A stretch of 35,504 nt of DNA from Clostridia bacterium (GTDB lineage: Bacteria; Bacillota; Clostridia; Oscillospirales; Acutalibacteraceae), in the NCBI GenBank assembly GCA_017631955.1, contig JAGBSJ010000002.1, forward strand, positions 1 through 35,504, given 5' to 3'. Position numbers and translations under genes: made by a program. Below are positions 5,367 through 28,098 of this stretch, piece after piece. The notes under the pieces were generated by a model. That model had not been told where the DNA came from, ran no database searches, and saw nothing but the letters and a program-made list of their open reading frames with translations. Position 1 is the stretch's first letter; every line of letters begins with the position of its first letter.

Positions 5367-5395
5367 TTGAATATTTTTGTTGTTTATGGTAAAAT
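5367..5395 (+). promoter_or_regulatory. Promoter of the acyltransferase pair
   Basis: TTGAAT (5367-5372), 17-bp spacer, TAAAAT (5390-5395) with TG one base before the -10. The predicted transcript starts near 5402, before the ATG at 5427. This excludes the longer in-frame reading that would start at 5367. Confidence 0.75.
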
Positions 5396-5426
5396 AGTTA
5401 CAAATCGGTTACAATTGGGTGATTTT

Positions 5427-6722
5427 ATGAATGAGATTTTGGATTATATCGTATATCCTGAAAATATAGAAATTAATGTACCCCCTATTATGCCTAAAAG
5501 ACAAAACGACTTTTACGCAGGGCTTGTATATAACATTTCACGCTTTATTCTTAAATTTATTGTCCGTGGTGGCACTAAACTTGAAAAAATTGGCGATGTA
5601 GAAAACCTTAAACCGCCTTACATTGTTCTTTGCAATCATAACCAATTTGTAGATTTCTTTACATGTTACAAGGCATTACATCCCCATAAAATCAATAATA
5701 TTGCTACTCTTGACGGATTTATCGGCTTTGAAAAAGTTATGACAGAGTTAGGTTGTGCTTGCCACAGAAAATACACAACAGATTTAGGGCTTGTTCGCGC
5801 TTGTCATAAAGTGCTTCACGAATATGGTGACATTCTTTGTATGTACCCTGAAGCACGCTACTCAAATGTTGGTACAACTGCAATAATTCCTGATGTTGTG
5901 GGCAAACTTGTTAAAAAGAATAAAGTACCTGTTGTGGTAATTCTTAATCACGGTCATTATCTTAATGCACCGTTCTGGGATTTCCGTCAATACAGAAAAG
6001 TTCCATTCTATTCTACTATGAAGCAAATCCTTACAGTAGAACAGATTGAAGAAATGACCGCGGAAGAAATCAACGAATTAATTCGCGAAGAAATGTATTA
6101 CGACGACCACGCTTGGCAGAAAGAAAACAATATTAAGATTACAGAAAATTTCCGTGCAGACGGACTTAATAAAGTCCTTTACAAATGCCCACATTGTATG
6201 GCAGAGGGCAAAACTGTTGGTAAGGGTATTCACCTTACTTGTGAAGAATGCGGTAAAGTGTGGGAATATACTGAACTTGGCGAATTAAAAGCCCTTGATG
6301 GTGAAACTGAATTCTCACATATTCCTGATTGGTATGAGTGGGAGCGTGAATGTGTACGCCAAGAAATTCTTGATGGTACTTACTATTATGAAGAAACACT
6401 TCCTGTGCAGTCAATGCCGGGACTCGAATTTATTCCTATTGGCGAAGCAAAAGTTACTCATGATTTAGAAAACGGATTTGTAATTGAGGGTCATTATAAC
6501 GGCCACGATTACAGAATTCAACGACAGACAAAATCGCTTTATACATTACATAACGAATTTGCATTCAAAAAGCTTGGTAAAGTTGATTGCTTTGACGTTT
6601 CAGTTAAAGACAATTCTTTCTATTGTATACCAAAACAGAAAGATGTTGTAACCAAGCTTATGCTTGCAACTGAAGAAATGTATAAAATCGTCAGCGAGAA
6701 AAAGGAAAAAACTACGGTTTAA
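5427..6722 (+). CDS. PlsC-type acyltransferase with zinc ribbon and C-terminal extension (copy A)
   Basis: 431 aa. The first 230 residues resemble 1-acyl-sn-glycerol-3-phosphate acyltransferases. NHNQFVD holds the HX4D catalytic pair (His71, Asp76), and YPEARYS (140-146) replaces the usual FPEGTRS acceptor motif. Then comes a four-Cys zinc ribbon, CPHC at 254-257 and CEEC at 272-275. After it lies a conserved region of about 150 residues (ETEFSHIPDWYEWER, KVTHDLENGFVIEGHYN) that I cannot assign. Ordinary PlsC proteins are about 200-250 aa, so this is a long, fused form. The start at 5427 has GGGTGAT upstream and follows the promoter. The paralogue at 6731 begins 8 nt after the stop, so both are probably co-transcribed. 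Likely a membrane-associated lipid acyltransferase; its acceptor is unknown. Confidence 0.75.
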   Translation: MNEILDYIVYPENIEINVPPIMPKRQNDFYAGLVYNISRFILKFIVRGGTKLEKIGDVENLKPPYIVLCNHNQFVDFFTCYKALHPHKINNIATLDGFIGFEKVMTELGCACHRKYTTDLGLVRACHKVLHEYGDILCMYPEARYSNVGTTAIIPDVVGKLVKKNKVPVVVILNHGHYLNAPFWDFRQYRKVPFYSTMKQILTVEQIEEMTAEEINELIREEMYYDDHAWQKENNIKITENFRADGLNKVLYKCPHCMAEGKTVGKGIHLTCEECGKVWEYTELGELKALDGETEFSHIPDWYEWERECVRQEILDGTYYYEETLPVQSMPGLEFIPIGEAKVTHDLENGFVIEGHYNGHDYRIQRQTKSLYTLHNEFAFKKLGKVDCFDVSVKDNSFYCIPKQKDVVTKLMLATEEMYKIVSEKKEKTTV

Positions 6723-6730
6723 TTACTACT

Positions 6731-8011
6731 ATGAATGAAAACAGAGAATTTTTGACAGAAATTATTTATCCTGATAATGTTGAGAGATATAATTCCGCGA
6801 AATCTCCGTTAAAACAATCGGACTTAGTAACAAAACTTGCTTACTTTGTTTCAAGCGTTATTCTATCTCTTGTGCGAAAGGGATACAAAATCGAAAAATT
6901 TAATATGGATGACTTAAAGCCACCTTATGTTTTACTTATCAACCATATGCAATCCCTTGATTTTTGTACTATGTTTAAGGCAACTTATCCTAATAAGGTA
7001 AATACAGTTGCCACATTCCACACATACTACACAGTTTCGGGAATTATGGAAAAACTAGGTTGTATTTGCACTCGCAAATTTACAACAGATTTAAGTCTTG
7101 TTCGTGCTTGTAAAAAGGTGCTGCACGAATATGGTGACATTTTTTGTATGTTCCCAGAAGCAAGATACACTCCCGACGGAACACTTTGTATTTTACCGCC
7201 TGCAGTAGGCAAACTTGCTAAAAAGAATAATGTTCCTATTGTGGTAATGCTTAATCACGGAAATTATCTTAATCTTCCGTTCTGGACAAATTTCAAATTC
7301 CGCAAAACACCTATTCGTGTTGAAATGAAACAAATTTTAACTGCCGAAGAAGTTGCAGAAAAAAGCGTTGATGAAATTAATGAGATTATTCGCAAGGAAA
7401 TGGAATATGACGAATATAAGTGGCAGAAAGACAATAATATTCGCATAAAAGAAAAATACCGTGCCGAAGGTCTTAATAAAATTCTTTATCAATGCCCAAA
7501 TTGCAAAACCGAGCACAAAATGATTTCAAAGGGTATTCACTTGTGGTGTGAGGAATGCGGTAAAAAATGGGAAATGACCGAACTTGGTGAAATGAAAGCA
7601 CTTCAAGGCGAAACTGAGTTTTCTCACATTCCTGATTGGTATAAGTGGGAGCGTGAAAATGTTCGCCAACAACTTCTTGACGGAACTTATCACTACGAAG
7701 AGGAACTTCAAGTTTACTCCACCCCCGGCGTTAATGAATATATCAACTTAGGTACAGCAAAGGTTACTCACGACTTGCAGAATGGTTTTGTTATTGAAGG
7801 TCATTATAACGACAACAATTACAGAATTCAACGACCAACCAAGGGTATTTATGGGTTACACGTTGAATATCAATTTAAGCAGTTAAAATATTTAGATTGC
7901 TTTGAAATTTCAACTACAAACGACTCGTTCTACTGTATGACAAAGAAAAAAGATATAGTTACAAAACTTGCCCTTGCAACAGAAGAAGCATTCAAAATTG
8001 CAAATGAATAA
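6731..8011 (+). CDS. PlsC-type acyltransferase with zinc ribbon and C-terminal extension (copy B)
   Basis: 426-aa tandem paralogue of copy A with the same architecture. HMQSLD (His72, Asp77) is the HX4D motif and FPEARYT (141-147) the second acyltransferase motif. A zinc ribbon follows (CPNC 255-258, CEEC 273-276). The C-terminal region holds the same blocks as copy A (ETEFSHIPDWYKWER, AKVTHDLQNGFVIEGHYN). All motif residues are kept, so both copies should be active rather than one being decayed. No clear ribosome site precedes the ATG. With an 8-nt gap, translation is probably coupled to copy A. A strong convergent terminator follows at 8016. Two different substrates or a heterodimer would explain keeping both copies; this is inference. 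Confidence 0.72.
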   Translation: MNENREFLTEIIYPDNVERYNSAKSPLKQSDLVTKLAYFVSSVILSLVRKGYKIEKFNMDDLKPPYVLLINHMQSLDFCTMFKATYPNKVNTVATFHTYYTVSGIMEKLGCICTRKFTTDLSLVRACKKVLHEYGDIFCMFPEARYTPDGTLCILPPAVGKLAKKNNVPIVVMLNHGNYLNLPFWTNFKFRKTPIRVEMKQILTAEEVAEKSVDEINEIIRKEMEYDEYKWQKDNNIRIKEKYRAEGLNKILYQCPNCKTEHKMISKGIHLWCEECGKKWEMTELGEMKALQGETEFSHIPDWYKWERENVRQQLLDGTYHYEEELQVYSTPGVNEYINLGTAKVTHDLQNGFVIEGHYNDNNYRIQRPTKGIYGLHVEYQFKQLKYLDCFEISTTNDSFYCMTKKKDIVTKLALATEEAFKIANE

Positions 8012-20818: not shown

Positions 20819-21878
20819 AGATTTACAGAAATTATTACGCGAACAACAAAGTGGTACTTGCGCTTTGATTGTCTCCCCTGAAAACAGAAAATATTTTACT
20901 GGATTTGAGTCATCTGACGGCTTTTTGCTTGCAAGCGTTGACCGCGCAGTATTTATTACTGACGGCAGATACATTGAAGCCGCAGAAAAACAGATTTCAA
21001 ACTGTGAAGTGCGACTTCTCGGCAAAACATTCCCACAAATTGCAGAAATCCTTAAAGAAATGAATTGTAGCAGATTACTTGTTGAATCAACACGAATGAC
21101 TGTTTCTACATACAATTCACTTAAAGGCGTGCTTAAAAAAATCCCAGTATCAACCGACACTACTCTTGATGCTCTTATCAACACACTTCGCTCAATCAAA
21201 ACCGAAGCAGAAGTTGAAAGCATTGTTAAAGCGCAAAGAATTGCAGAAGATGCATTTGAACATATTCTTAAATTCATCAAAGTGGGCGTTACTGAAAAAG
21301 AAATTGCACTTGAATTGGACTTTTATATGCTTCGTCACGGTGGCAAGGGACTTTCTTTTGAAACTATTGCAGTAAGCGGTAAAAATTCATCAATGCCTCA
21401 CGGTGTACCAAGTGATAAGAAAATCGAAAATGGTGATTTTATCACTATGGATTTCGGCACAATCATTAACAGTTACCACAGTGATATGACAAGAACAATC
21501 GCGGTAGGTTTTGCTACTGACGAAATGAAAAATGTGTATGACGCTGTACTTCGTGCACAACAAAATTGCCTCAGCAATATTAAAGCCGGCATCAGTTGTA
21601 AAGATGGTGACGAATTTGCCCGCTCTGTTTTACGTGATGCAGGTTTAGGTCAGTATTTTACACATTCAACAGGTCATGGCGTAGGTGTTGAAATTCACGA
21701 ATTCCCTAACCTTTCACCCGCATCTGACAGCGTTTTACAAACAGGCAACATTGTAACTGTTGAACCAGGAATTTATATTCCTGAAAAATTCGGTGTAAGA
21801 ATTGAAGATATGGCTCTAATTACAGAAAATGGTTGTAGGAATCTTACAAACGCGCCAAAAGAATTGATTATTTTATAA
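20811..21878 (+). CDS. M24 Xaa-Pro aminopeptidase/dipeptidase
   Basis: 355-aa metallopeptidase of the M24B (YqhT/PepP/PepQ-like) group that cuts peptides before or after proline. N-terminal domain residues 1-125 (creatinase-like), then the pita-bread catalytic domain with all five ligands: MDFGT (Asp214), SDMTRT (Asp225), STGHGVG (His289), VEPG (Glu318) and IEDM (Glu332). The length is typical. I chose the ATG at 20811, which overlaps the yqeG stop by 8 nt and implies coupling; a TTG at 20784 would lengthen it by nine residues. In many Firmicutes this peptidase adjoins efp, which is not seen here. Its 3' end overlaps the converging small gene by 11 bp. Confidence 0.92.
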   Translation: MIKDLQKLLREQQSGTCALIVSPENRKYFTGFESSDGFLLASVDRAVFITDGRYIEAAEKQISNCEVRLLGKTFPQIAEILKEMNCSRLLVESTRMTVSTYNSLKGVLKKIPVSTDTTLDALINTLRSIKTEAEVESIVKAQRIAEDAFEHILKFIKVGVTEKEIALELDFYMLRHGGKGLSFETIAVSGKNSSMPHGVPSDKKIENGDFITMDFGTIINSYHSDMTRTIAVGFATDEMKNVYDAVLRAQQNCLSNIKAGISCKDGDEFARSVLRDAGLGQYFTHSTGHGVGVEIHEFPNLSPASDSVLQTGNIVTVEPGIYIPEKFGVRIEDMALITENGCRNLTNAPKELIIL

Positions 21879-22131
21879 AAAACGCAGTGATTATTGCCCC
21901 TACCCCTGCCGACGTGAGCAATTCAGCAATAAAAAACGCTTTGCTTTTGATTTTTTGTTTGCGAGTTTTTGGCACACCGGCAGACTTTTTTATACTTTTC
22001 AAGGCATTGCCTTTTAATTTACTTTCACTTTCGGCGGAATATTCGGGACGAACAAAAAACAGGGCCTTTTCAAAATATTCGCACCCTGTTTCATGAATTT
22101 CAAGCACTTGACGGTTAACACCCTTGACCAT
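21868..22131 (-). CDS. Small conserved hypothetical protein with C-terminal membrane helix
   Basis: 87-aa protein beginning MVKGVNRQVLEIHETGCEYF. The first half is soluble, with a YFEKALFFVRPEY segment. A basic linker (KTRKQKIKSKAF) leads to one hydrophobic helix at the end (AELLTSAGVGAIITAFF). It therefore probably points into the cytoplasm, tail-anchored. I recall similar small proteins of unknown function in Ruminococcaceae and related Clostridia but know no experimental role. GAGGA lies 8 nt before the ATG. Its last 11 bp overlap the end of the M24 gene on the other strand, with no terminator in between. Confidence 0.65.
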   Translation of the reverse strand: MVKGVNRQVLEIHETGCEYFEKALFFVRPEYSAESESKLKGNALKSIKKSAGVPKTRKQKIKSKAFFIAELLTSAGVGAIITAFFIK

Positions 22132-23418: not shown

Positions 23419-23500
23419 AATCAAATATGGTTATATCTCGTCACCTTGACGAGTGAAAAAGGAACCCCATCACAATTTTGTGATGGGGTTTTGGGTTTTT
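23419..23500 (+). ncRNA. Candidate small RNA of about 80 nt
   Basis: Bounded by a good promoter (23384-23412) and a perfect terminator. The predicted RNA has a first hairpin CTCGTCA/TGACGAG (23437-23443 with 23447-23453), a single-stranded purine stretch GTGAAAAAGGAA, and the 12-bp terminator stem. It also contains a nine-codon frame ATG...TGA at 23427-23456 (MVISRHLDE) without a ribosome site. I do not recognise it as a known RNA family. It lies next to, and points toward, the 3' end of the two-TM gene at 23507. It could be a trans-acting sRNA or, if read-through occurs, antisense to that gene. Confidence 0.5.
23463..23500. terminator. Strong bidirectional terminator
   Basis: Perfect 12-bp stem AACCCCATCACA (23463-23474) with TGTGATGGGGTT (23479-23490), 4-nt loop, TTGGGTTTTT after it on the plus strand and CCTTTTTC after it on the minus strand. 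It ends both the candidate RNA and the minus-strand operon whose last gene stops at 23507. Confidence 0.92.
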
Positions 23501-23506
23501 ATTAAG

Positions 23507-24043
23507 TTATTTTAAGGCATCATAAGTGCCAAGAATCATACACTCTTTTTTATCGTCTTCTAATCGTTGCAACGCTTTTTCTCTTGCTCTTTTTGCATTT
23601 TTAATTCTCTTGATTGTGGTATATGCAAATATAAAGCTCAACGCTGGCAAAATCATAAGTGCCGCCGCGCTTACACCGCCACTTAATCTCAAAAGTGGCT
23701 CTATTCCAACATTGTGACAGACAGTATTTATAGCAACTGTCAAAACATAAAGCAAAACAACAATCAAAATATACAATGGAATATATTTTTTTGCATCGCG
23801 AATTTCTTGTTTTGTATTTTCTTCGATTTTTATAACGCTTTTGTTATACATTGAACGAGTCAGCACAATATGGTCTGTGTTGGGCGTTAACTCGCCGTGA
23901 TGAACTGCATCAAAATATTCACGACCTAAAGGTTTTTCTTCTTCAAAAATAACATTCTGGTCAAACATTCTATTCGCAAGATGAGAAATATCTTCTTTTT
24001 CTCCAGTAGATTCAAGTGAATCTACTCTTAATTTTTCATCCAT
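23507..24043 (-). CDS. Two-TM paralogue family, member 1
   Basis: 178-aa membrane protein of unknown function. N-terminal soluble region begins MDEKLRVDSLESTGEKEDIS and contains RMFDQN. A helical stretch with an LTR motif follows (LTRSMYNKSVIKIEENTKQE). Two hydrophobic segments come next (YIPLYILIVVLLYVLTVAI; VSAAALMILPALSFIFAY). A charged coiled tail ends in ECMILGTYDALK. The same N-terminus and tail recur in the next gene, and the tail in the third. I chose the ATG at 24043, with AGGTGAG upstream and 4 nt after the previous stop; a longer reading from 24064 would overlap that gene. It is the last gene of the malic-enzyme unit. No family name can be given from sight. Confidence 0.7.
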   Translation of the reverse strand: MDEKLRVDSLESTGEKEDISHLANRMFDQNVIFEEEKPLGREYFDAVHHGELTPNTDHIVLTRSMYNKSVIKIEENTKQEIRDAKKYIPLYILIVVLLYVLTVAINTVCHNVGIEPLLRLSGGVSAAALMILPALSFIFAYTTIKRIKNAKRAREKALQRLEDDKKECMILGTYDALK

Positions 24044-24047
24044 TCGC

Positions 24048-24653
24048 TCACCTGCTTGCATCATAAAGTCCTAAAAGCATTTGTTCGCGTTTGTTTTCTT
24101 CAATAATTTCAAGTGCTCTTTCTCGTTTCTTTTTGTATTGTTTAATGTTCTTAATTGTGCTATACACAAAAACGCCAAACACCGTTACATTTATAACAAG
24201 TACCATCCAACCTATTCCAAAGAACAATCCGCCCATAGCCCAATAGGCACGAACAAATTTTTTCTCTACGAACTCATTAAAAGATAGCTCATATACTTCC
24301 TCATACTTGTCAAAGCTATCTGCTGAAAGTCCAAAAGAAATAATAGCAAATATTACCAATACCAAGAAAATTGCCGTTACAACAACAATTTTTTTCTTTT
24401 CGTCTTTTATGCTTTTAGTGAATCTCTGCTCAACCTTTTCTCGCATTTCATAATGCTTTGTTCTTGTAAGACGGACTTCCTTGTTAAGAAAGTCCATACT
24501 TTCGCCAAAAATGTCATACAGATAATCTCGATTCATAGTTTCGCCTTTGTCAAAAGTTGCTGTGTTTTGGTCAAACATTGAATTGGGAATATGCGAAATG
24601 TCTTCTTTGTCTCCAGTTGTTTCGAGTATATCTACTCTTAATTTTTCGTCCAT
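24048..24653 (-). CDS. Two-TM paralogue family, member 2
   Basis: 201-aa paralogue of member 1. Its first 30 residues are nearly the same (MDEKLRVDILETTGDKEDIS, then NSMFDQN). An LTR-type helix (LTRTKHYEMREKVEQRF) precedes the first membrane helix (VVVTAIFLVLVIFAIISFGL). About 30 residues of acidic extracytoplasmic loop (DKYEEVYELSFNEFVEKKF) are followed by a second helix (GGLFFGIGWMVLVINVTVFG). The charged tail ends with QMLLGLYDASR. The larger loop between the two helices is the main difference from member 1. It starts 7 nt after the member 3 stop, with AGGTAG before the ATG. Both ends are probably cytoplasmic. Confidence 0.7.
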   Translation of the reverse strand: MDEKLRVDILETTGDKEDISHIPNSMFDQNTATFDKGETMNRDYLYDIFGESMDFLNKEVRLTRTKHYEMREKVEQRFTKSIKDEKKKIVVVTAIFLVLVIFAIISFGLSADSFDKYEEVYELSFNEFVEKKFVRAYWAMGGLFFGIGWMVLVINVTVFGVFVYSTIKNIKQYKKKRERALEIIEENKREQMLLGLYDASR

Positions 24654-24660
24654 AAACTAC

Positions 24661-25062
24661 CTATTTTTCAGCATCATAAGTGCCAAAATCCATACAAATC
24701 TTTTTTCTGTTTTCTAAATCATCAAGGCGCTCTTGCTCTTTCTTTTTTATCTGTTTCGTGCGAATTATAAGACTTCCTAAAGGAAATGAGAGGACACAAG
24801 GCGCCGACAACATAATTACAGCTAATGTTCTTTCGCGATAATTGATAAAGGGGTCATCTAAAATAATGGGAATTAAAACAATCACCATTACAATTTCAAC
24901 TATTACATTCACAATCGAAAGAGCAAGAAAAAACGGAAATGTCTTTTTTATTCTCGCCTTTTCTTCATCAAAATATGTTGTAATATCGTGATATTCGGCA
25001 ATATATTCACTGCGAGTCATTGTGGGGAGTCCGCTATTGTTTGAATAAAGTCCATTACTCAT
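24661..25062 (-). CDS. Two-TM paralogue family, member 3 (short form)
   Basis: 133-aa member lacking the DEKLRVD N-terminus but keeping the rest: a helix after MTR (MTRSEYIAEYHDITTYFDEE), two hydrophobic segments (FFLALSIVNVIVEIVMVIVL; LAVIMLSAPCVLSFPLGSLI), and a charged tail QERLDDLENRKKICMDFGTY ending DAEK. Its ATG overlaps the malic-enzyme stop (ATGA), so its translation is coupled to that enzyme. It is the first of the three paralogues in the transcript. Function unknown; a membrane complex made of the three is possible. Confidence 0.7.
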   Translation of the reverse strand: MSNGLYSNNSGLPTMTRSEYIAEYHDITTYFDEEKARIKKTFPFFLALSIVNVIVEIVMVIVLIPIILDDPFINYRERTLAVIMLSAPCVLSFPLGSLIIRTKQIKKKEQERLDDLENRKKICMDFGTYDAEK

Positions 25063-26231
25063 ATTCTTGCCACTCCGCTTTTTTCTGCTGCTTTTGCTAC
25101 TGCCTTCGCAACAGTTGTGCCTACACGCTCGTCAAATGCTTTCGGCAAAATATAATCTTCATTTAAGTCGTCATCAGAGACAAGCGATGCAATCGCCTCA
25201 GCGGCGGCAAGCTTCATATCTTCGTTAATGTCACTTGCTCTGCAATCAAGTGTGCCACGGAAAATACCAGGGAATGCAAGCACATTGTTAATTTGATTTG
25301 GGTAGTCGCTTCTACCTGTGCCAACAACTTTAGCCCCTGCATTTTTTGCTTTTTCAGGCATAATTTCAGGCACAGGATTTGCCATTGGAAACACAACAGC
25401 ATTTTCCGCCATTGATTTAATCATTTCTTCTGTAACAATGTTCGGTCCAGAAACACCAATAAAAATATCTGCCCCTTTAAGAGCATCTTTGAGTGTGCCT
25501 TTAAGGTTGTTTTTATTTGTTATTTCTGCCATTTGTGCTTGTGCAGGATTCATCCATTCTTCGCCAATACACAGGATTCCCATTTTGTCGCACATTATAA
25601 TGTTGCCTGCGCCCATTTTATGTATAAGTTTTGCAATTGCGATTCCCGCCGCACCTGCACCACTGAAAACTACAGTGCAATCTTCAATATTTTTATTCAC
25701 AACGCGAAGTGCATTTTTAACCGCTGCACCTACTACAACTGCGGTGCCGTGCTGGTCATCGTGAAATACAGGAATATCTAGTTTTTCTTTTAACTTTCTT
25801 TCGATTTCAAAGCATCGAGGAGCAGAAATATCTTCAAGATTTATTCCGCCAAAACTACCCGCAAGAAGTGAAATGCAATTTACAAATTCGTCAACATCTT
25901 TACTACGGACACAAAGAGGAATAGCATCAACTCCGCCGAATTCCTTGAAAAGTACACACTTACCCTCCATAACAGGCATACCTGCCTCAGGACCAATGTC
26001 CCCTAGTCCTAAAACCGCGGTGCCATCTGTTACAACCGCAACGGTATTCCAACGGCGAGTAAGCTCATAAGATTTATTTATGTCTTTCTGAATTTCAAGG
26101 CAAGGGGTAGCCACACCGGGAGTATAAGCCAACGATAGTGCTTCTTTATCGTTAACCTTTGCTCTTGCGGTAACTTCAATTTTTCCTTGCCACTCATAGT
26201 GGAGTTTCAAACTTTCTTTTGCGTAGTCCAT
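25059..26231 (-). CDS. Malic enzyme (short bacterial form)
   Basis: 390-aa oxidative decarboxylase turning malate into pyruvate and CO2 with reduction of NAD(P). Seen: the Tyr of LSLAYTPGVATPC, TDGTAVLGLGDIGPEAGMPV, the catalytic Lys in MEGKCVLFKEFGG, the metal-binding HDDQHGTA, the nucleotide loop FSGAGAAGIAIAKL, and FPMANPVPE. The length matches the single-domain bacterial type; there is no phosphotransacetylase domain as in MaeB. The start at 26231 has AGAGGCAAAG upstream. It heads the unit with the three two-TM paralogues, the first overlapping its stop. Cofactor preference cannot be told with certainty. Confidence 0.94.
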   Translation of the reverse strand: MDYAKESLKLHYEWQGKIEVTARAKVNDKEALSLAYTPGVATPCLEIQKDINKSYELTRRWNTVAVVTDGTAVLGLGDIGPEAGMPVMEGKCVLFKEFGGVDAIPLCVRSKDVDEFVNCISLLAGSFGGINLEDISAPRCFEIERKLKEKLDIPVFHDDQHGTAVVVGAAVKNALRVVNKNIEDCTVVFSGAGAAGIAIAKLIHKMGAGNIIMCDKMGILCIGEEWMNPAQAQMAEITNKNNLKGTLKDALKGADIFIGVSGPNIVTEEMIKSMAENAVVFPMANPVPEIMPEKAKNAGAKVVGTGRSDYPNQINNVLAFPGIFRGTLDCRASDINEDMKLAAAEAIASLVSDDDLNEDYILPKAFDERVGTTVAKAVAKAAEKSGVARI

Positions 26232-26261: not shown

Positions 26262-26288
26262 GGCGGGAGTGTTTTTCTCCCGCCCTTT
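26262..26288. terminator. GC-rich hairpin between the small nuclease-like gene and malic enzyme
   Basis: 8-bp stem GGCGGGAG (26262-26269) with CTCCCGCC (26277-26284) and a 7-nt T-rich loop, 5 nt after the stop of the minus-strand gene 26290-26565. On the minus strand no U-tail follows (ATAGATATATA), so it may be an RNA-end protector or partial terminator instead. Confidence 0.5.
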
Positions 26289-26289
26289 T

Positions 26290-26565
26290 CTACTGTCGCT
26301 CAAAATACTCATCGTCAGCAATATAATATGTGCGAATAAAACCTTCTTCGGACACAAACACGATTTCACCTGTCTGAGATAGATAATAAACCTTATCGTT
26401 GTCGCCCTCGTCAGTTTCAACCTTCACTTTTACCTGCGAATTATTAATAACCGCATTTGCTTTGATAAGATATTCTTCTGCCGTTTCGCAACCCGTCGCC
26501 TCTTTATGCTCATAAAAATGACTCATAAGTTTTTCAGGAGTGCGAAAGGTTAATATTTTAGCCAT
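26290..26565 (-). CDS. Small protein resembling a stand-alone BECR-fold (barnase/EndoU/RelE-like) domain
   Basis: 91-aa protein. The N-terminal helix pair (EKLMSHFYEHKEATGCETAE, EYLIKANAVIN) followed by four strands (VKVKV, KVYYLSQTGEIVFVSEEGFI, RTYYIAD, EYF) resembles the 'HFxKHxxxxxxxSxEEYLxxA ... GxIxTxF' pattern of phage- and toxin-associated RNase domains of the BECR fold. His16, His20, Arg78 and Thr79 are the matching candidate active residues. There is no secretion leader and no obvious immunity or antitoxin gene. Its ATG overlaps the glpK stop by one base (TAATG), so it is translated with glycerol kinase. Assignment is by pattern only; it could be a non-catalytic relative. Confidence 0.45.
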   Translation of the reverse strand: MAKILTFRTPEKLMSHFYEHKEATGCETAEEYLIKANAVINNSQVKVKVETDEGDNDKVYYLSQTGEIVFVSEEGFIRTYYIADDEYFERQ

Positions 26566-28073
26566 TAGTGCTCAACCCAATCTCTTGAACGTTCAACAGC
26601 ACGAAGCCATCCACGATATCTCTTTTCGCGTTTTTCTATATCCATTTTTGGTTCGAAAACCTTATCTATTTCACGGATTTTTTCGATTTCTGCAGTATCT
26701 TTCCAGAAACCAACCGCAAGACCTGCAAGATAAGCCGCACCAATTGCAGTTGTTTCAACCATTTTTGGTCTGTTAACGTTTGTTCTAATCATATCCGACT
26801 GAATCTGCATCATAATATCACTTACAGATGCGCCACCGTCAACACGAAGTTCAGAAAGATTTATATCTGAATCTTGTTTCATTGCTTCAAGCAGGTCTGT
26901 CATCTGATATGCGATTGCCTCAAGAACACTTCGGCAGATATGAGCAGATGTTGCACCGCGAGTAAGGCCTACAATTGTGCCACGAGCATACATATCCCAG
27001 TAAGGTGCGCCAAGTCCTGTAAACGCAGGAACAAAATACACACCATTTGCATTAGGAACGCTTTCTGCCAACTCGTCACAACGACGTGCAGACGGAATTA
27101 ACTGCAAATCGTCGCGAAGCCACTTAATAACTGAGCCCGCATTGAAAGCAGAACCCTCAATAGCATAAGTAACCTTATCGCCGATACCCCAAGCAACACC
27201 TGTAACAAGATTATTCTTTGACTCAACGCGCTTATCGCCTGTATTCATAAGCAAGAAACATCCTGTGCCGTATGTATTCTTCGCCTGACCTTTTTCGAAA
27301 CAACCCTGACCGAAAAGTGCTGCGGGCTGGTCGCCGATTGCGCCTGAAATTGGTACGCCTGCCAACTCCTCAACACCCATAACGCTCTTTGCAACTGTAC
27401 CATAAACTTTACTTGATGGTACTGCTTCAGGCAACATAGCCATAGGAACACCGATTTTTTCGCAAAGATATTCGTCCCAACAAAGTTTATCAACATCAAA
27501 AAGCATTGTTCTTGAAGCGTTTGAGTAGTCAGTAATATGTACCGCACCGCCTGTTAAGTTCCAAATAAGCCATGTTTCAACTGTACCGAAAAGAAGTTGA
27601 CCTTGTTCTGCCAATTCTTTTGCACCATCAACATTTTCAAGAATCCACTTGATTTTTGTTGCAGAGAAATAAGCGTCAACAACAAGACCTGTATGGTCTT
27701 TAATGTGTTGTGTAAGTTCTGCATCTTCTTTGATTTTTTCACACATATCTGCAGTTCTTCTACACTGCCACACAATAGCATTATAAATGGGTTTACCTGT
27801 TGATTTGTCCCAAACTATTGTTGTTTCACGCTGATTTGTAATACCGATTGCGGCAATATCGTTAGCGTTTGCTTTGCTTTCTGCTAATACTTCCATAACA
27901 GATTGAAGTTGGGAGAAAAGAATTTCCATTGGATTGTGTTCAACCCAACCTGTGTGAGGGTAAATCTGTGTAAACTCGTGTTGTGCTTTGTAACAGATAT
28001 TACCTTTTTTATCAAAAAGAATTGCACGTGAACTTGTTGTTCCTTGGTCTAATGCCAATACATATTTTTTCAT
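26565..28073 (-). CDS. glpK: Glycerol kinase
   Basis: 502-aa FGGY-family kinase making sn-glycerol 3-phosphate from glycerol and ATP. YVLALDQGTTSSRAILFD is the N-terminal phosphate-binding motif. TNQRETTIVWDKSTGKPIYN and QCRRTADMC are substrate-site blocks typical of GlpK. GAIGDQPAALFGQGCFEKGQ holds the catalytic Asp. ELRVDGGASVSDIMMQIQSD is the second ATP loop. Length is normal. I chose the ATG at 28073, preceded by GAGGTG at 7 nt. It follows the GH20 gene by 25 nt in one unit and is coupled to the small nuclease-like gene. No glpF, glpD or glpP is in the window. Confidence 0.97.
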   Translation of the reverse strand: MKKYVLALDQGTTSSRAILFDKKGNICYKAQHEFTQIYPHTGWVEHNPMEILFSQLQSVMEVLAESKANANDIAAIGITNQRETTIVWDKSTGKPIYNAIVWQCRRTADMCEKIKEDAELTQHIKDHTGLVVDAYFSATKIKWILENVDGAKELAEQGQLLFGTVETWLIWNLTGGAVHITDYSNASRTMLFDVDKLCWDEYLCEKIGVPMAMLPEAVPSSKVYGTVAKSVMGVEELAGVPISGAIGDQPAALFGQGCFEKGQAKNTYGTGCFLLMNTGDKRVESKNNLVTGVAWGIGDKVTYAIEGSAFNAGSVIKWLRDDLQLIPSARRCDELAESVPNANGVYFVPAFTGLGAPYWDMYARGTIVGLTRGATSAHICRSVLEAIAYQMTDLLEAMKQDSDINLSELRVDGGASVSDIMMQIQSDMIRTNVNRPKMVETTAIGAAYLAGLAVGFWKDTAEIEKIREIDKVFEPKMDIEKREKRYRGWLRAVERSRDWVEH

Positions 28074-28098
28074 TGTATAACACCTCAAAAAATTTTTA

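Follow-up and report, generated by a model that had tools for sequence, protein, structure and literature searches.

The three tandem genes that close a glycerol kinase/malic enzyme gene group in the window, by which we mean the whole 35,504-nucleotide stretch of Clostridia DNA analyzed here, belong to a lineage-restricted family of gut-bacterial membrane proteins that is located at the tail of a group of metabolic genes, is duplicated and apparently often lost, and is nearly invariant at its ends. We tentatively read these proteins, at somewhat less than an even chance, as genus-restricted accessory hairpins with both termini inside, whose cytosolic tip and N-terminal motif would hold a conserved cytosolic partner at the membrane, with the copies oligomerizing.

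Table 1. Positions of the three paralogues (A, B, and C) and of the elements adjoining them in the window
Feature	Position	Strand	Description
Terminator-like hairpin	23461..23492	both	just 3' of gene C
Gene C	23507..24043	minus	178 aa, two-TM paralogue; N-terminus almost equal to that of B
Gene B	24048..24653	minus	201 aa, two-TM paralogue with a long inter-helix loop
Gene A	24661..25062	minus	133 aa, short two-TM paralogue without the NRDYL segment; start overlaps the stop of malic enzyme by ATGA
Malic enzyme	25059..26231	minus	PF00390, PF03949; adjoins gene A on its upstream side
91-aa protein	26290..26565	minus	no match in Pfam; flanked by glycerol kinase and malic enzyme
Glycerol kinase	26565..28088	minus	FGGY_N, FGGY_C; name assigned from sequence

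An earlier note on this DNA had placed the three tandem genes correctly in coordinates, strand, and order (Table 1), and the overlap it described is present at 25059-25062, where the ATG of gene A overlaps the TGA of malic enzyme. Gaps of 7 nt and 4 nt separate A from B and B from C, respectively; for gene C we chose the start at 24043, which has AGGTGAG ahead of it, the ORF list placing it at 24064 for a product of 185 aa. Upstream on the same strand lie the genes for the 91-aa protein, glycerol kinase, and a GH20 hexosaminidase, and glycerol kinase is also the upstream neighbor in the other genomes carrying the family whose contig extends that far. A, B, and C are probably expressed from the tail of this glycerol kinase/malic enzyme gene group. 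Terminator-like sites number 10 across the region, versus 4.5 in shuffles.

Several other elements of the window deserve a record in their own right. A G+C-rich hairpin (26262-26284) between the 91-aa gene and malic enzyme looks like a terminator in the plus-strand direction alone and may therefore affect the message when transcribed with the operon. The sequence of the 91-aa protein (26290-26565) is also found as the C-terminal portion of longer proteins, among them L094:7193-7777, which starts with a zf_Tbcl treble-clef domain. Farther away, two tandem paralogues on the plus strand (5367-8011) match the Pfam Acyltransferase model barely over its cutoff and carry behind it, by eye, a zinc-ribbon-like C-x2-C ... 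C-x2-C segment. On the minus strand, two adjoining genes (366-2754) that look related by eye encode proteins with several membrane helices, the first with an HTH_3 domain and the second with no Pfam match at E 0.001. An 87-aa protein (21868-22131, minus strand) lacks a Pfam match, probably has a single membrane segment as judged by eye, and is 68-74% identical to its versions in three relatives.

The three genes are true paralogues, with similarity beyond chance. A profile built from 21 family copies from other genomes detected A, B, and C at E = 6e-17, 1e-53, and 2e-33, respectively, against a best E of ~0.02 among 606 background ORFs and 500 shuffles, bearing out the paralogy proposed earlier. 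B and C have MDEKLRVDxLExTGxKEDIS and MFDQN in common, and at the nucleotide level they are 82% identical over the first 90 nt and 61% over the remainder. The N-terminus shared by two of the genes is thus that of B and C; as a refinement, gene A also has the N-terminal [FY]-[DSEQ]-x-N motif, in the form LYSNN. B and C display every hallmark of the family, namely [FY]-[DSEQ]-x-N, T-R, two TMs, and the tail K-x-E-x-M-x-x-G-x-Y-D, and gene A does so except for the tail E, which is replaced by I.

Across genomes we counted 24 copies, including one that is prematurely stopped, and left out a 25th, which is frameshifted. As had been described for the three window genes, A, B, and C each contain two hydrophobic segments; two segments are called in 22 of the 24 copies, one copy having a single call and one having three. 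The 15 residues on each TM flank away from the loop include 3-8 K/R, which supports, as a prediction, the proposed cytoplasmic location of both ends; the topology is probably N-in/C-in. Conservation of the ends holds across the family: the N-terminal [FY]-[DSEQ]-x-N motif and T/S-R are present in 24/24 copies each, the tail Y in all 23 copies that reach it, and the exact K-x-E-x-M-x-x-G-x-Y-D tail in 18 of the 23 complete tails, the others (G029_8745, G027_9907, G012_9112, G032, and window A) departing at one or few positions. Three A-type proteins (G003, G004, and G031) have long N-termini, with a second exact YDVFSEN in two of them and a near copy, YDMFAEN, in one.

The chance that two rows of the alignment agree, averaged over columns, is 0.55 in the tail, 0.47 from NRDYL to TR, 0.22 in each of TM1 and TM2, and 0.20 in the loop. 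The earlier statement that divergence is greatest in the loop holds for length, as only one of the 23 other rows has a loop as long as that of B (22 differ); in sequence, the two TMs diverge about as much as the loop does. The stretch from T-R to TM1 shows no net indel in any of the 24 rows, and that from TM2 to the end differs in length in only two (one premature stop and one shorter by one residue); within TM1, five rows differ by 1-3 residues. In B numbering, T63-R64 lies ~25 residues before TM1 and K188-M192 ~25-29 after TM2. Helical periodicity in these stalk stretches was not significant (permutation p 0.13-0.47).

In the genomes searched, the family is restricted to one genus. The profile gave a match at E <=0.01 in 20 of the 39 genus genomes, several of which are incomplete; 13 of these are carriers, with a best E of 3.5e-33 or better in each. 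Matches in the other seven (E 7.6e-4 to 0.009) were counted as chance, the best matches of six of the seven having been read as sequence (L047, L048, L049, L050, L052, and L053). Beyond the genus, samples of the family (300 genomes), the order (394), and the class (391) yielded no real match; these samples overlap, each include the window's genome, and in the case of family and order include other genus members; at most 11 or 8 first-look candidates per genome were scored. Eight weak family-level matches (E 4e-5 to 8e-4, L064 and L067 included) all lack the end motifs and were rejected. A scan of 84,980 species genomes with [MI]NRDYLxxI[YF] returned 11 loci, all from carriers and all identical to them in the family proteins; such a single pattern can miss copies without it, and the window's genome and G032 were not returned. 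One carrier is Candidatus Fimenecus excrementavium (genus Candidatus Fimenecus). The literature on Fimenecus and on malic-enzyme operons with two-transmembrane proteins held nothing on these genes among the matches listed.

Carriers hold one copy in four cases (G001, G023, G032, and G036), two in seven, and three in two (G000 and G026). The earlier note had suggested a hetero-oligomeric membrane complex; an obligatory one of three parts is not supported, since 4/13 carriers have a single copy and only 2/13 have all three, and the putative hetero-oligomerization of the copies is not obligatory. In G004, one of the two copies has a premature stop. G012 has an extra, gene-A-like copy (L027:8700-9120) that is frameshifted near a run of T, which could be decay, sequencing error, or phase variation; both lesions could also be assembly errors.

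The family tree, in which many forks are weak and A and C form long branches, suggests repeated lineage-specific duplication. In the malic-enzyme tree, carriers are scattered among non-carriers within a weakly supported group of 25 species, and the glycerol-kinase tree (26 rows) places G001 and G036 with non-carriers outside that group. One gain followed by several losses is the simplest reading of this history, for which transfer or recombination could also account. A clean empty site occurs in G017, a near relative of carrier G018: its flanks are 86-88% identical, and the interval from the malic-enzyme stop codon to the region of the last stop contains no family gene. Separately, the second copies of G003, G004, and G031 (L032:8537-9905; L030, L033) conflict with malic-enzyme kinship: B of G004 is 73% identical to that of G031 and 65% to that of G003, yet the malic enzyme of G004 is closer to that of G003, a hint of recombination at the locus. 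We also compared A and B types within the same genome against mismatched pairs in eight genomes, which gave 0.51 vs 0.46 for the N-termini (p 0.06) and 0.36 vs 0.34 for the bodies (p 0.02). The N-termini of window B and C resemble each other strikingly, as do those of the two G027 copies; over the whole set, within-genome likeness of A- and B-type N-termini is only a trend, and the comparison does not prove concerted evolution.

From these features the proposed hairpin can be laid out in order. It would begin with the [FY]-[DSEQ]-x-N motif as an N-terminal docking element, usually followed by the NRDYL segment, and continue through the 26-residue T-R-to-TM1 stretch, TM1, a variable outer loop, and TM2 into a second stretch of similar length and the K-x-E-x-M-x-x-G-x-Y-D tail. 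The fixed length of both cytosolic stretches would put the T-R end and the tail at about equal depth, where they could form one conserved tip ~25 residues below the membrane; if both stretches are helical, the two conserved spots would meet at the end of the stalk. The tip and the N-terminal motif would together tether a single conserved partner from the cytosol to the membrane, and the copies may form homo- or hetero-oligomers via TM and stalk contacts. The strongest constraint falls on the predicted cytosolic parts, the loop and membrane parts being freer, as would fit an adaptor that contacts a conserved partner through its inner tip. Purifying selection and the steady place behind malic enzyme also favor this reading. 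Window gene A, which has neither the NRDYL segment nor the tail E, speaks against it, as do the non-significant helical periodicity of the stalks and the mere trend in N-terminal likeness.

Candidate partners would be malic enzyme (by position), glycerol kinase, or something encoded outside this locus. Motif sharing pointed to none: N-terminal and tail profiles, run separately over the 39 genus genomes, found no convincing other protein with either end domain, the only matches beyond the family and the G012 remnant being five at E 0.04-0.09. The family is absent from 26 of these 39 genomes, some of them incomplete, and any partner therefore does without it there. If the tip binds a metabolic enzyme, the family would illustrate how attachment to the membrane is added to a housekeeping pathway within one lineage.

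An alternative that we consider unlikely makes the proteins dedicated partners of malic enzyme, acting as its membrane anchor or regulator, perhaps beside a malate/pyruvate carrier, and co-translated with it for that reason. The co-occurrence with malic enzyme in our genome survey of copy number and neighbors, which found 1-3 copies per carrier, is real. A family gene stands directly downstream of malic enzyme in 12 of the 13 carriers (the G027 contig ends inside malic enzyme, and in G012 the broken copy stands first behind it), and the genes beyond the family vary, being of at least six kinds by eye; in G029, a galT-like gene (GalP_UDP_transf) separates the two family copies. The ATGA overlap with the malic stop recurs at 4 of the 12 malic loci (G000, G026, G018, and G012, where it leads into the frameshifted copy), with first copies elsewhere starting 16-65 nt from the stop, or 138 nt in G029.

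Against this reading, the linkage proposed in the earlier note is not strict and does not extend to every carrier. The sole copy of G032 lies ~266 nt behind trpA (Trp_syntA), or 179 nt counted from the first start of its ORF, and the malic locus of that genome is on another contig without a family copy. A malic-enzyme match is present in 37/39 genus genomes; in 12 the family follows it, and in the other 25, among them G032, it does not, the absence at 4-5 of these 25 loci being judged by profile search only. The non-carriers with such a match thus number 24. No malic-enzyme residue clearly separates the 12 carriers from 13 others of the clade, G032 being counted among the latter (best Fisher p 0.03 among 686 tests). 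Malic enzyme is disfavored as an obligatory partner by these three findings: the copy of G032, the 24 non-carriers with a malic-enzyme match, and the failure of any malic residue to mark carriers clearly. The family also evolves far faster than malic enzyme, and the linkage may be merely an inherited position.

Rates of change bear as well on a further alternative, namely that these are conflict or immunity proteins, serving in phage defense or in immunity to membrane-active peptides, whose duplication, divergence, and quick loss reflect an arms race. On balance we find this doubtful, and treat it as a serious rival because of rate and patchiness. G012 and G026 share 93% identity in malic enzyme and 97% in glycerol kinase, versus 47% in A and 61% in B; between G000 and G026, the figures are 91% for malic enzyme, 32% for A, and 33% for B. 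The family thus changes far faster than either enzyme. Tandem duplication, a patchy distribution that includes the clean empty site of a sister species, two genomes with damaged copies, and weak PADLOC matches to KwaA (E 0.0008) and a 2TM effector model (E 0.002), each by one member, likewise point toward conflict.

However, the PADLOC matches of 22 members have E-values of 0.0008 at best and involve at most 4/22 of them, and no relative was found in phages and plasmids with gene B as the query or in viral contigs with a B-type alignment. Reading the neighbors by eye, we saw no adjacent nuclease, toxin, or signaling gene. Positive selection left no sign in a crude whole-gene test, dN/dS being <0.5 wherever defined: in the closest pair, G003/G004, it is 0.19 for A and 0.25 for B (the G004 B being the prematurely stopped copy), over five closer pairs 0.13-0.30, values that are rough in several of these pairs because dS is 1.7-2.3, and in pairs with G000 0.39-0.46 (one undefined). 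Malic enzyme and glycerol kinase, where defined, give 0.02-0.05. These values indicate that the family genes are coding and constrained, though loosely. Were the proteins immunity proteins after all, their genes would flag a site of conflict in an uncultured genus.

A more elaborate version, in which the family is new, arose within the genus, and forms mixed rings or clusters of stalk hairpins that hold malic enzyme or glycerol kinase, encoded on the same message, at the membrane, with the variable outer loops tuning the paralogues to different outside signals, strikes us as quite improbable. That these are orphan genes without selected function riding on an operon, as the patchy distribution (most simply repeated loss) and the one frameshifted and one prematurely stopped copy might suggest, is very improbable and already disfavored by conservation, given the dN/dS of the closer pairs, the near-invariant end residues across carriers, and the fixed stalk length.

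Among known families, the earlier note had recognized none with this signature, a view that our library searches uphold. A, B, and C score far below the curated cutoffs for the whole protein in Pfam and NCBIfam. The member-set scans (Pfam, NCBIfam, and PADLOC) took 22 members, the copy of G032 and the G004 copy with a premature stop being left out; their best values were E 6e-5 in Pfam (Acyl_transf_3, one member, among 25 of 77 families listed) and E 5e-5 in NCBIfam (glyco_rpt_poly, two members, among 25 of 57 families listed). In PHROGs, the best match (phrog_944, E 0.001) covers gene B residues 90-187 and is not convincing for the whole protein. Among PDB sequences, 20 had E <=1; the best, the HBC599 membrane protein binder (E 6e-5), and those after it, mostly GPCR constructs and many of them cytochrome b562 fusions, were set aside as chance helix matches.

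SLATT domains have two TMs with flanking cytosolic helices; in contrast to the general resemblance this implies, no SLATT model was listed for A, B, or C at E up to 1, and none was among the 25 of 77 Pfam families listed for the 22 members. KwaA (NCBIfam NF041622/PADLOC KwaA), the model matched by the single member mentioned above, is likewise a membrane protein and weakly matches gene C residues 87-170 (E 0.008), but gene C scores only 16 bits against a cutoff of 100. KwaA is accompanied by a KwaB gene beside it, whereas no KwaB-like gene was noticed beside the family when neighbors were read by eye. DUF6377 (PF19904), the top Pfam match of B (E 4e-4), which also matches 5/22 members, aligns around T-R and TM1 but spans B residues 53-116 only, at 20.4 bits against a cutoff of 36.7. 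MAG1210 (NCBIfam NF046000) and MAG0920 (NCBIfam NF045996) weakly match 11/22 members (best E 1e-4) and 4/22 members (best E 2e-4), respectively, over the TMs and flanking charged stretches; the window proteins reach 12-16 bits against a cutoff of 275 for the former and, with A and B only among those listed, 17-19 bits against 43 for the latter, most likely through shared composition. We read the weak Pfam, NCBIfam, and PADLOC matches in general as likeness of membrane segments and composition and, with only weak, partial matches across Pfam, NCBIfam, PHROGs, PADLOC, and PDB sequences, regard the family, as judged by these sequence comparisons, as new to the libraries searched.
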